From: Syntrophomonas sp.
Lineage (GTDB): Bacteria; Bacillota; Syntrophomonadia; Syntrophomonadales; Syntrophomonadaceae
Length of the DNA stretch: 64,000 nt
Assembly (NCBI GenBank): GCA_016841875.1
Contig: JAENYG010000003.1
Span: forward strand, 1-64,000
Reading direction: 5' to 3'
The position numbers and the translations under genes were made by a program. How positions within the stretch are numbered: the stretch's first letter is position 1; each line of letters begins with the position of its first letter. Positions 51,449 to 54,836 of the stretch are shown one piece after another. A model generated the notes under the pieces. The model ran no database searches, was not told the origin of the DNA, and was given only the letters and a program-made list of their open reading frames with translations.

Positions 51449-52804
51449 TTGGATAATATGACTTTTTATCTGATATTATTACAATCATTTACAGAGACTT
51501 TGATTCTAATATACCTGGGGCTGGTCTTAATTGGTTACAACAAGCCGCCTTTCCTAAAAGTTATGTTAATAGCTCTTTCCAGCGCCCTTTTAAGCTATTT
51601 CCTGCGCTCCATACCTCTGCCCCCGGGAGTAAATGTATTTATTCAGATTCCTGTTATAGCAGCCTTGCTAGCTTGTATATGCCAACTAACATTATTCTCA
51701 AGTATAAGCAGTACAGTTCTTGGATTTTTAGGCGTTAGTACAGCCGAAATCCTCTTCAATGCTGCGGTCTCCTTGTTTACCGGAATCTCTCCCCCGCAAG
51801 CCATGAATATACCATTATGGCGTATAATATATCCTCTTCCAGAGTTTGCATTTCTAACTGCATCAATATTTTGGCTGAGGCATAAACAGGTAGACCTGCT
51901 TGGTTTAATAAAACCCATATATAATAACAGTGCACAGAGCTTTAGAGATCACAGTAAATTCGTTATGCTCTTGAGTATGACGGTTATGCTGGTAGTATTA
52001 GCCTTCTACTGCCAGTTCTACCTGGAAGGGGCTACACCGCTATATTCAAGAGAATCTATAATAATTATCCTGTTCGCAACCTTAATCATCGCCGTAGTAT
52101 TATCACTGACCTTAACCTGGAAAATGCTATATATAAGGAATCAGATAACTCTGGCGGAAATGCAAAATAATAATATTAGCAATCTAAATAATATGATGCA
52201 GATCATTAAAGCCCAGCGCCATGATTTTATAAATCACATTCAGGTCATTTACGGACTGTTAAAGTTGGGAGAGAACCAGCAGATTGAATCTTACATCAGC
52301 GGTCTGTATAAAGACATACAGCTTACCAGCGACATACTGCAGCTAGCCATTCCCGAATTGAGTGCCTTTCTATTAGTGCAAACTGGTATAGCGACGGCCA
52401 GCGACATATCTCTGGAGATAGAGCAGGAAACAGATCTAGCTGCTCTTACCGTACCATCCCCGGAACTGATAGCAGTGGTGGGAAACCTGCTCAAGAATGC
52501 TATGGAGGCTGTGGAGGATTTAGCACCGGAGAAAAGGAAGGTCAAGCTCAAAATATTTGAACGATCGAAATATTACATTATTCAAACCCAAAACTACGGG
52601 TTGATTCCCCATGAATTTAAAAACAGGATCTTTGAATCCGGCTTCTCAACTAAAAGTGGTCCTTCTGAACGAGGGGTAGGTCTAGCTTCAGTAAAATACC
52701 AGGTAGAGAAATGCCGGGGAATTATATTACTCAGCAGTCACCCGGAATATGGAACCCGTTTTACGGTTTGTTATCCCAAAGAAAAAGGGAGGAAGATAGC
52801 TTGA
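51449..52804 (+). CDS. agrC: AgrC-like sensor histidine kinase
   Basis: A 451-residue kinase with six hydrophobic segments in the first 225 residues, the AgrC-type sensor for a cyclic peptide. The phospho-acceptor box is KAQRHDFINHIQVIYGLLK (H258), of the HPK10/GHKL class. The ATP-binding domain has VGNLLKNAMEAVEDLAP (N box), STKSGPSERGVGLASVKYQVEK and YGTRFTVCYP. I start it at TTG 51449, eight bases after GGGAGGC. It should sense the AgrD-derived peptide and phosphorylate the regulator at 53443. Its stop overlaps the AgrB start. Confidence 0.9.
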   Translation: MDNMTFYLILLQSFTETLILIYLGLVLIGYNKPPFLKVMLIALSSALLSYFLRSIPLPPGVNVFIQIPVIAALLACICQLTLFSSISSTVLGFLGVSTAEILFNAAVSLFTGISPPQAMNIPLWRIIYPLPEFAFLTASIFWLRHKQVDLLGLIKPIYNNSAQSFRDHSKFVMLLSMTVMLVVLAFYCQFYLEGATPLYSRESIIIILFATLIIAVVLSLTLTWKMLYIRNQITLAEMQNNNISNLNNMMQIIKAQRHDFINHIQVIYGLLKLGENQQIESYISGLYKDIQLTSDILQLAIPELSAFLLVQTGIATASDISLEIEQETDLAALTVPSPELIAVVGNLLKNAMEAVEDLAPEKRKVKLKIFERSKYYIIQTQNYGLIPHEFKNRIFESGFSTKSGPSERGVGLASVKYQVEKCRGIILLSSHPEYGTRFTVCYPKEKGRKIA

Positions 52805-53436
52805 GTATTCATGAAGTATCAGTTAGATGCGCAGCTTACCTGGCGGGAGAAATCGGAGGTGATTCTCGCCAGGAGACTCGCATGGCTTATGGGTTGGAAA
52901 TACTGCTGGGCGAAATCATAAAGATGACCTGCCTGGTATTATTATCCTGGTATTTTGGTATCTTGCTAGAGGTACTGAGTATCACCATCACTGCCGGAGT
53001 TCTGCGTCTGGCATCCGGAGGAGAGCACTGCAGTGGGTATTATCGCTGCCTCATCGGGGGTACTGTATGCTTCCTGCTGCTGGGCTGGGGAACTCATTAC
53101 TTAAACGTCTTTTTTACTCCACCCCATGCTTACATAGGTATAGTATTAAGTTTGCTCGTTTCCTGGGGCGTACTATGGAAATATGCACCTGGTGAAACCG
53201 AAAATAAACCGATAAACAGTGAAGAAGAAAGATTGAAATTCCGTAAGGTTTCTCTATTCCTTTTACTTATATATGGCCTGGTAATGATGACCTTTACAAA
53301 CTATATAAAACTACAGCCTTTGGTTCTTCCAATAATGATCGGAATGATCGAGCAGTCTTTTACCGTAAGCCCCTGGGGTTACCACTTTATTCATTTTGTA
53401 GACCGAGCTTTAATTTTTGAAAAAGCGGAGCTGTAG
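52801..53436 (+). CDS. agrB: AgrB-type peptide processing endopeptidase
   Basis: A 211-residue membrane cysteine protease. The catalytic pair is H76 and C83 in ASGGEHCSGYYRC, aligned with H77/C84 of Staphylococcus AgrB. Five or six hydrophobic segments follow. AgrB trims the C-terminal tail of AgrD and forms the thiolactone ring. The start is TTG 52801, overlapping the kinase stop; GGGAGGAAG in the kinase tail is its ribosome site. An ATG-less frame opens earlier at 52711 and is not used. Confidence 0.95.
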   Translation: MSIHEVSVRCAAYLAGEIGGDSRQETRMAYGLEILLGEIIKMTCLVLLSWYFGILLEVLSITITAGVLRLASGGEHCSGYYRCLIGGTVCFLLLGWGTHYLNVFFTPPHAYIGIVLSLLVSWGVLWKYAPGETENKPINSEEERLKFRKVSLFLLLIYGLVMMTFTNYIKLQPLVLPIMIGMIEQSFTVSPWGYHFIHFVDRALIFEKAEL

Positions 53437-53442
53437 AAGAGC

Positions 53443-54171
53443 ATGACTCTACAAGTTCTTATTGTTGACGACGAGCCGGCGACCGGCATATATCTTAAAG
53501 CTATTATCGAGCAAGTACCTGGAGTAAATGTACTTGCTGTAACTTCCAGCGCTAAAAAAGCTCTTGAGGAAGCAGCGAAATACTTACCCCACGTAGTGTT
53601 CCTGGATATTGACATGCCGGAAATGAATGGTCTGGAACTGGCCCGAACCCTGGTGAAAAGGCATGACGATATTAATATAGTATTTGCAACCGCTTTCCCT
53701 GATTATGCTTTACAGGCTTTTGGTTTATATGCTTTTGATTATATTCTTAAACCCTTTAATGAGAAAAGGATCAAAAATACTATAAAGAAACTAATAGGTA
53801 AAATGCAAGCACAACATCCTGCACCAGGCGAGTTAAGATATGTAAAACATATTGCGATAGACACCCAGGCAGAAAAAATCTTCTTAAACCCAGACGAAAT
53901 TCTCTTTATTGAAAGTAATAGATCAAAGCTTAATATTAAAACTGTGAGGAATGCCTACATCATTAAGGGTAAACTTCATTCCTTAGAAGAAAGGCTTGCC
54001 CCTTATGGATTTTTTCGCACTCATCGCAGCTATCTGGTTAATCTCCGCCACATCAAGGAAATTACCCCTTCGGACTATACTTTTGAGATAGTCATGTTAT
54101 CCGAAGATAGGGTTTTACTAAGCCGTCATAAAGAGAAACGCCTGCGCAAGAGGCTAAACCAACTGAACTAA
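53443..54171 (+). CDS. agrA: AgrA-like LytTR response regulator
   Basis: A 242-residue regulator. The receiver domain (1-125) has D9/D10, the phospho-acceptor D55 in VVFLDIDMPEMNG, and K104 in FDYILKPFNE. The LytTR DNA-binding domain covers about 140-240 (EILFIESNRSKLNIKT, FFRTHRSYLVNLRHIKEI). It lies six bases after agrB. LytTR proteins bind direct repeats about 21 bases apart; such a pair lies ahead of agrD at 54282. Confidence 0.95.
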   Translation: MTLQVLIVDDEPATGIYLKAIIEQVPGVNVLAVTSSAKKALEEAAKYLPHVVFLDIDMPEMNGLELARTLVKRHDDINIVFATAFPDYALQAFGLYAFDYILKPFNEKRIKNTIKKLIGKMQAQHPAPGELRYVKHIAIDTQAEKIFLNPDEILFIESNRSKLNIKTVRNAYIIKGKLHSLEERLAPYGFFRTHRSYLVNLRHIKEITPSDYTFEIVMLSEDRVLLSRHKEKRLRKRLNQLN

Positions 54172-54281
54172 ACTAACCATTCTTTACCTCAACCCTTATT
54201 CCCAATAATGTTGTATTCTAACATTTGCAGTCATTTCCTTGCCTATTATTTTTCCTGGTTGTATTTCTTATTTCCGTATTA

Positions 54282-54354
54282 TTTGCCATTCACCTTCGAA
54301 TATTTGCCATTCAGCTCTGAAGTATTGAATTCTATTTAGATATAGTTGTAAAAT
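54282..54354 (+). promoter_or_regulatory. LytTR-type direct repeats and promoter of agrD
   Basis: TTTGCCATTCA occurs at 54282-54292 and again at 54303-54313, exactly 21 bases apart, two turns of DNA. TTGAAT at 54325-54330 and TAAAAT at 54349-54354 (18-base spacer) follow as promoter boxes. This geometry is that of AgrA-type activated promoters, so agrD is probably switched on by its own signalling circuit. Confidence 0.7.
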
Positions 54355-54391
54355 ACTATAACTACTTGGGTATATATGGAAGGAGGTGGTA

Positions 54392-54517
54392 ATGATGTTT
54401 AAGTTCCCGAAAATGCGTGTTATACAATTGGCATCCATGTTTCTTTTATTCATAGCCAGTGCCGGAGTAAAACCTGCATGTTTGTTCCACTGGTACCAAC
54501 CTAAGTTGCCGGAGTAG
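54392..54517 (+). CDS. agrD: AgrD-type cyclic autoinducer peptide precursor
   Basis: A 41-codon gene behind a perfect AAGGAGGTGG. The peptide has the AgrD plan: an amphipathic N-terminal helix (FKFPKMRVIQLASMFLLFIA), a small-residue stretch, the signal core PACLFHW with the single Cys30, and the conserved C-terminal tail YQPKLPE. By analogy the signal is a thiolactone between Cys30 and the residue where AgrB cuts, perhaps W34 (ring CLFHW). Unlike most loci, agrD lies after agrA and is separated from it by 220 bases with its own promoter. Confidence 0.9.
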   Translation: MMFKFPKMRVIQLASMFLLFIASAGVKPACLFHWYQPKLPE

Positions 54518-54836
54518 AATAATGGATGAAGAATACTAATAGGTTCTAAATCAGTTGTTATAATCAATATATATTATTTTTGGCAGAATTATTGAAGAAC
54601 AGCCCATCTCGGGCCTGGGTACCCATGGATACCATCTAAAGCAACATCGTTATTAGTGCTCCTCCTGATAACAATTAGCTTTAGAGCAGAATGTTTCTCA
54701 CCTGCGTACACTACAGTGGGCGAGAAACATTCTATTATTTTCATTTCTTTGTTATTTATTTTTCCTGAATTATATTTAGAGATTAGCAGCTTTTTATTGG
54801 ACCTGGACAGGTTCTCACGAGAGGGAACCCTATCTC
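54518..54836. other. intergenic region after agrD
   Basis: About 320 bases between the agrD and ABC-F genes. It contains the agrD terminator hairpin at 54688 and no gene. Confidence 0.45.
54688..54745 (+). terminator. terminator of agrD
   Basis: AGAATGTTTCTC pairs perfectly with GAGAAACATTCT, with 22 bases between, followed by ATTATTTTCATTTCTTT. It lies about 170 bases past agrD and also faces the end of the ABC-F gene. Confidence 0.65.

Follow-up and report, generated by a model that had tools for sequence, protein, structure and literature searches.

Architecture of the agr locus

The stretch of Syntrophomonas sp. DNA analysed here (the window: 64,000 nucleotides, positions 1 to 64,000 of contig JAENYG010000003.1, assembly GCA_016841875.1) carries an agr-type peptide-signalling locus with four genes on the forward strand in the order agrC-agrB-agrA-agrD (C-B-A-D). 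The window lies on contig C27 of its genome (G000), and a close relative, G002, was used for pairwise comparison. The first gene, agrC (51449–52804, + strand), encodes a membrane sensor kinase (SPOB_a, 62 bits; HATPase_c_5, 45 bits) that starts with a TTG at 51449 or 51443 and has a hydrophobic N-terminal half, with hydrophobic segments preceding the kinase part, an H-box (RHDFIN) and an N-box (NLLKNA). The AgrD-processing membrane peptidase is encoded by agrB (52801–53436, + strand, TTG start; PF04647, 133.3 bits, cut-off 23). AgrB proteins have a conserved, catalytic H...C motif, and in the window's GGEHCSGYYRC the H and C are spaced seven residues, with the motif GGxHx6C present in all ten AgrB sequences compared (the window AgrB among them). 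The AgrB of a relative (L042, a Syntrophomonas metagenome-assembled genome) is 92% identical to that of the window, and a sequence search of solved structures returned no AgrB relative, the top matches being unrelated receptors (E 0.075). The response regulator agrA (53443–54171, + strand) combines a receiver (PF00072, 84 bits; phosphoacceptor motif LDIDMP) with a LytTR DNA-binding domain (PF04397, 88 bits), and among the 60 best of 150 solved-structure matches most were response-regulator receivers. Its score against the AgrA equivalog model NF046049 (41.4 bits) is below the cut-off of 400, so the protein is not of the staphylococcal type.

The fourth gene, agrD (54395–54517, + strand), encodes a signal precursor of 40 amino acids, MFKFPKMRVIQLASMFLLFIASAGVKPACLFHWYQPKLPE (TIGR04223, 36.9 bits, cut-off 19), with a hydrophobic leader, a Cys and a YQPxxPE tail. 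Profile searches thus recovered an AgrB peptidase, an AgrD precursor, an AgrC-type kinase and a LytTR response regulator, and the complete Agr system read at this place in the preliminary description is borne out by Pfam and NCBIfam matches for all four genes, as is the tight packing of the first three, with the end of agrC (52804) overlapping the start of agrB (52801) and agrA beginning 6 bases past agrB. The same description placed a 41-codon agrD 220 bases after agrA with a ribosome site of its own; the place and the site (a Shine-Dalgarno sequence, AGGAGG) stand, and the likelier start is the ATG at 54395, the position of the only ATG in G002, which leaves a gap of 223 bases, with 54392 also possible. 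The gene sits 1.06 kb past the AgrB match, behind agrA, and not beside agrB in one operon as in the canonical agrBDCA arrangement.

A tandem repeat linked to agrD

Just upstream of agrD lies a feature missed by the preliminary description, a tandem TTGCCATTCA-N11-TTGCCATTCA (54285–54313, + strand) whose direct repeats GCCATTCA at 54285–54292 and 54306–54313 have a period of 21 bp. This box is the sole perfect match in the window (0 mismatches; 0.03 chance matches expected when up to three are allowed), and no other perfect box occurs across the genome. It stands ahead of agrD, with none ahead of agrC, and is accompanied by two sites with three mismatches; the reversed control pattern returned one site. 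Beyond it is a predicted promoter (54325–54354, + strand) with a −35 element TTGAAT (54325–54330), an 18-bp spacer and a −10 element TAAAAT (54349–54354). Such a promoter call is a pattern match, by itself no commoner than in shuffled sequence, and the promoter that the preliminary description ascribed to agrD is favoured by its −35 element beginning exactly 11 bases beyond the proximal repeat, a spacing conserved in relatives, and by its conservation in G002. TATAGT was rejected as the −10 element, as it would leave a spacer of just 10 bases.

LytTR proteins of the AgrA type recognise a pair of direct repeats ahead of the promoters they control, and by sequence the region has such tandem repeats, with a period of roughly two helical turns, before a −35 element, centred ~62 bases ahead of the start expected from TTGAAT-18-TAAAAT. 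The box is taken as a presumed AgrA site because this layout agrees with those of Staphylococcus aureus AgrA, whose repeats are centred near −60 at promoters with spacers of 18 and 20 bp (PMC4227749), and of Clostridioides difficile RgaR, for which bases at −51 and −72, a distance of 21 bp, are required ahead of a target (PMC10602386).

The relatives share the plan of a motif ([ACG]CC[ATG]TTC[AG]), 13 bases, a repeat of the motif, 11 bases and TTG; a stricter pattern with R at the first position was dropped after it missed most relatives, whose first base is C. With a regular expression slightly looser than this consensus, the joint pattern occurred 11 times in 672,752 bases (22 sequences), a descriptive count, always at agrD or its expected place, covering 10 of the 12 AgrD genes with the eleventh match in G023, where agrD would be expected. 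In the loci examined first, 21 was the only period at which motif pairs occurred, and 12 of 13 regions had TTG at spacing 11. A simpler pattern scanned across 54 genomes of the family returned 23 box sites in 15 genomes, and none when reversed. Seventeen sites stand before an intact agrD, three before a decayed or masked one (a frameshift in G015:C23, an internal stop in G064, masking in G061), one at a contig end (G062:C84) and two elsewhere. Seen from the AgrD side, 21 rows in the family score above 60 bits, and 17 of these have the box at period 21 and 11 bases from the −35 element, those without being in G014, G062:C81, G035:C49 and a G030:C47 copy at the contig's very start. The strict spacing of the box and its link to agrD are thus matters of direct observation. 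Motif spacing upstream of 38 distinct AgrD genes was 21 in 23 genes and 42 in seven, corresponding to two or three in-phase repeats, with 9 and 12 each seen two times and all other values once. The G000 and G002 sequences have diverged from agrA up to the box and are ~92% conserved from the box to the agrD stop.

The box could also be bound by another LytTR regulator, placing agrD under a different input. LytTR sites of different proteins resemble each other. A precedent exists in the C. difficile regulator RgaR, which drives agrB1D1 (PMC10602386). We consider this unlikely for the window, as the box was found among the 54 family genomes only where this type of AgrD or a P0002-type agrC-agrB-agrA (CBA) locus is present, and the box is also missing from three genomes of the genus that have no window-type locus (G001, G003 and G004). 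Further, extra agrD copies in G035, G030 and G112 have a 3' fragment of agrA before the box, indicating that the box travels with the end of agrA.

Gene order and transcription of agrD

Using the window AgrB as query, matches were obtained in 42 of 61 genomes, of which 20 stretches were compared and 11 more added later. The order C-B-A-D on one strand recurs in G000, G002, G027, G015, G035:C51, G014, G020 and G064, so that the reordering of agrD noted in the preliminary description is confirmed and conserved in a group of Syntrophomonadaceae. The stretches of G005, G030:C47 and G076 keep agrA-agrD only (with part of agrB in G005), agrD is convergent with agrA in G024 (inverted relative to CBA) and in G062 is on the opposite strand, ~2.8 kb away from CBA, the order is C-A-D-B in G035:C49, and G023 has the box and no agrD before the contig end. 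Elsewhere in these genomes, and in other families, agr loci carry agrD right behind agrB (L056, L057, L059–L062). A sample of 149 genomes from the phylum gave 107 AgrD rows, of which 76 follow a same-strand agrB at no more than 400 bp, in keeping with the earlier statement that most known loci place agrD elsewhere than in the window, and six lie 990–1064 bp after agrB, an agrA-sized gap (G000, G002, G123 twice, G202 and G112; families f1, f26 and f49). For a further 18 rows agrB is absent from the contig or lies more than 20 kb away, and seven are other cases.

The same strand and the 223-base gap would also suit agrD as the last gene of an agrCBA operon, transcribed by read-through with the repeat incidental, and a hairpin search of 18 agrA-box intervals found no recognisable terminator in the gap of G000 or G002. 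The same search returned terminator-like hairpins in nine of the intervals (G015, G035 twice, G014, G030, G076, G061, G023 and G112). Together with the inverted agrD of G024 and the distant copies in G062 (on the other strand) and G123 (far from CBA), these indicate that agrD is in general its own transcription unit, and with the box tracking agrD genome-wide they make read-through improbable as the source of the agrD transcript.

The signal precursor

The AgrD precursors of G000 and G002 are identical, their genes separated by six synonymous and no non-synonymous changes, and the identities of the partner proteins are 84% for AgrC, 92% for AgrB and 68% for AgrA. The precursor is thus held constant as AgrC, AgrB and AgrA diverged, and these substitutions place the agrD behind agrA under strong purifying selection. 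A separate observation concerns agrA itself (53443–54171 in G000; L043:7066–7794 in G002), where dS reaches 0.79 next to 0.20 in the neighbouring agrB; the gene may have been exchanged, or may be fast-evolving.

The genome has two AgrB, and two AgrD above the cut-off, with the second pair, not seen in the preliminary description, on G000:C30, so that an agrD elsewhere, which the preliminary description allowed for as the true partner, does exist. Were the AgrD of that contig the partner of the window AgrB and AgrC, the agrD after agrA would be a relic. This is very improbable given the purifying selection on the latter and the position of the second agrD, ~15 bases behind its own agrB, in a pair that is kept in G001, G002 and G004, with G001 and G004 lacking the CBA-D type. 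With its own adjacent agrD the second locus is judged a separate system, and it does not replace the agrD after agrA.

The predicted thiolactone ring of the window signal is CLFHW. Across the 38 distinct AgrD genes, CWFHW occurs in 16 and CLFHW in 10, and eight further rings share the other 12. CLFHW is carried by eight genomes of four genera (G000, G002, G005, G027, G030, G015, G076 and G012), which qualifies the earlier description of the autoinducer as new; no paper with a CLFHW signal was found in the literature searched. Likewise, the 'unusually aromatic' character of the ring holds for the window-type group as a whole and is unremarkable among clostridia, where the table in PMC3673130 gives ACYW VYQP for Clostridium botulinum and IWFT for Clostridium perfringens. 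Staphylococcal agr signals are variable (PMC3673130), whereas the window-type precursor is near constant. Copies within one genome mostly have the same ring, as expected if a single receptor serves them all, with the exception of G067 (CWFNW and CWFSW).

Cassette copies and downstream genes

In relatives the box has been duplicated, moved or inverted together with agrD, the two acting as a single cassette whose copies the preliminary description did not pick up. Two nearby agrD copies are present in each of G027, G035:C51, G067 and G112, three in G030, and one good and one decayed copy in each of G064 and G015; G000 has a single box-agrD cassette. Runs of N occur in L128 (G061) and at L121:5853–6524 (G067), one of which begins within an agrD. 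The agrA 3' fragment ahead of an extra copy in G035, G030 and G112 suggests that the duplications took the end of agrA along, and the extra copies probably arose in this way. Family f26 is the extreme, with seven window-type AgrD and two CBA loci in the single-contig genome G123 and four window-type AgrD in each of G086 and G202 (six and five, respectively, counting AgrD of any type). Window-type AgrD were matched at 1e-8 in 14 of 398 genomes of the phylum, with scores above 55 bits only in f1, f26 and f49.

For 36 AgrD copies in long loci, the next gene (at least 100 residues, within 900 nt) is on the same strand in 20 cases. By a crude rule, 15 of these 20 genes are secreted-like, compared to 54 of 260 other genes of the same loci (Fisher p 1.1e-6, the copies being partly non-independent). 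Pfam matches among the next genes scanned were DUF4879 (G014 and G030) and a C39-like peptidase domain (G035), with none or weak matches for the rest. A small protein family of ~160 residues (NILQVNASNYQPNAYP...) also recurs near agrD (L116:3083–3565, L122:6273–6767, L124:2396–2911 and L047:9623–10096), with clear likeness in G030, G062 and G077 and less clear likeness in G014, and the two members scanned had no Pfam match. In the window, the gene after agrD is ABC-F-like and on the opposite strand, converging on agrD, so there is no effector gene behind agrD.

Proposed circuit and relation to known systems

Taken together, these data favour a working agr-type system in which the signal gene is uncoupled from the processing and sensing genes and AgrA drives feedback on the signal only, to which we assign a probability of about 0.78. 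In such a circuit agrC, agrB and agrA would form one transcription unit, and AgrB would cut AgrD after the last residue of the ring (CLFHW / YQPKLPE) and close a Cys-to-Trp thiolactone, with removal of the leader. The five-residue peptide would accumulate and bind AgrC, AgrC would phosphorylate AgrA, and phosphorylated AgrA would bind the repeat at 54285–54313 and turn on the agrD promoter, producing positive feedback on signal production alone. In the relatives, the cassette would have been duplicated upstream of genes for secreted proteins, each quorum-controlled operon adding signal. The genes, the box and the cassette copies are directly observed, and ring size, processing, AgrA binding, feedback and the effector role of the downstream genes are inferred.

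Several observations weigh against this circuit, in addition to the lack of a recognisable terminator between agrA and agrD in G000 and G002. Two boxes have no agrD (G062:C81 and G062:C120, the latter preceding a 157-residue open frame resembling a membrane protein), the AgrD of G014 and of G062:C81 have no box, and G035:C49, with its C-A-D-B order, has just one good half-site. G012 has a box and AgrD and no AgrB match at E ≤ 1e-5, perhaps due to an assembly gap. The middle repeat is frequently degenerate in f26, and nine of the 38 AgrD genes have no motif pair at 21 or 42. Finally, the box was turned into a regular expression only once the sequences had been inspected, making the 672,752-base and 38-gene results descriptive and not predictive, and the 54-genome scan, a stronger test, used a pattern derived from the same sequences.

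A more distributed design is conceivable, though less likely than not: a duplicating AgrA-box-agrD cassette would lead each quorum-controlled operon, so that any effector operon, once on, would contribute signal, with one receptor serving all. In the window, where no effector gene follows, the cassette's RNA could have a structured 3' end presenting an anti-Shine-Dalgarno loop (CUCCUCC) and, as precursor-encoding RNA, be the equivalent of RNAIII.

The S. aureus agr system (agrBDCA, promoters P2 and P3, RNAIII) shares with the window the four protein families, AgrA-type repeats ~60 bases before the start, an 18-bp spacer and implied positive feedback, and differs in that the window has the order C-B-A-D, its sole perfect box before agrD with none before agrC, and no Rfam match. 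Feedback in S. aureus acts on the whole operon. The C. difficile RgaR-agrB1D1/SpoZ circuit likewise has a LytTR-type regulator that drives an agr signal gene through repeats with a 21-bp spacing, but there the regulator and kinase are encoded away from agr, and agrB is switched jointly with agrD (PMC10602386). Signal genes that are not beside agrB have been described in Clostridium autoethanogenum, with agrD2C2 without agrB (PMC8748961), and in Clostridium thermocellum, with agrD outside an agr operon and a demonstrated cyclic pentapeptide (PMC5322536), the latter sharing the five-residue ring; in their accessible parts, these two papers describe neither an AgrA-box cassette nor a multiplied signal gene. 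The literature searched contained no paper on a detached box-agrD arrangement and next to nothing on agr peptide signalling in this family. Syntrophomonadaceae are known for syntrophic life. The locus is a real, conserved agr variant, and not a new kind of system; its proposed mechanism fits known parts, in an architecture not met in the literature searched. If the proposed circuit is correct, it would represent a second wiring of agr feedback, through the signal only, and a route of regulon growth by copying the signal gene and its switch ahead of a new effector. CLFHW would be a chemically simple, near-constant peptide across several genera, making cross-species signalling directly testable.

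The region downstream of agrD

The terminator that the preliminary description placed after agrD corresponds to a strong terminator-like hairpin followed by a T-rich run (54688–54733, + strand), 171 bases after agrD and between it and the converging ABC-F gene; it could serve either gene. Ahead of it, a hairpin (54635–54685, + strand) conserved in G002 only presents CUCCUCCU (54659–54666) in a loop that is mostly accessible in predicted folds, and the CUCCUC of the loop is predicted to be unpaired in both G000 and G002. The surrounding sequence (54530–54745) is 77% identical to G002 and has no other clear match among the 61 genomes. Its fold is more stable than shuffles on the + strand (z −5.06) and also on the − strand (z −3.85), and in the consensus fold, from two sequences only, three of 37 pairs changed on both sides. 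Pairing of the loop with agrD's own Shine-Dalgarno sequence was considered and is predicted to be negligible. No Rfam family matched the window, so no RNAIII homologue was seen, and CUCCUC-type stretches occur downstream of three of 38 AgrD, two being those of G000 and G002, leaving the RNAIII-like idea unsupported beyond this pair. An RNAIII-like role of the region is possible but weakly supported.

Other agr-like loci

G001 contains three related loci (L196, L197 and L198) with AgrC-like genes beside agrB, followed in L196 and L198 by a response-regulator-like gene, and no AgrD was recognised in the three loci by the pattern used. The second agr-like block of G000 (L003:4893–7884 on G000:C30; also L193, L194 and L195) is kept in four Syntrophomonas genomes and consists of a membrane protein of 155–176 residues in the position of AgrC and without a kinase domain, agrB, agrD with the core C[FMV][YF][GC]HYQPEVPESLRK, and a protein with GGDEF and HD domains (assigned by Pfam in G000 only). 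The block may connect a cyclic peptide directly with cyclic-di-GMP.

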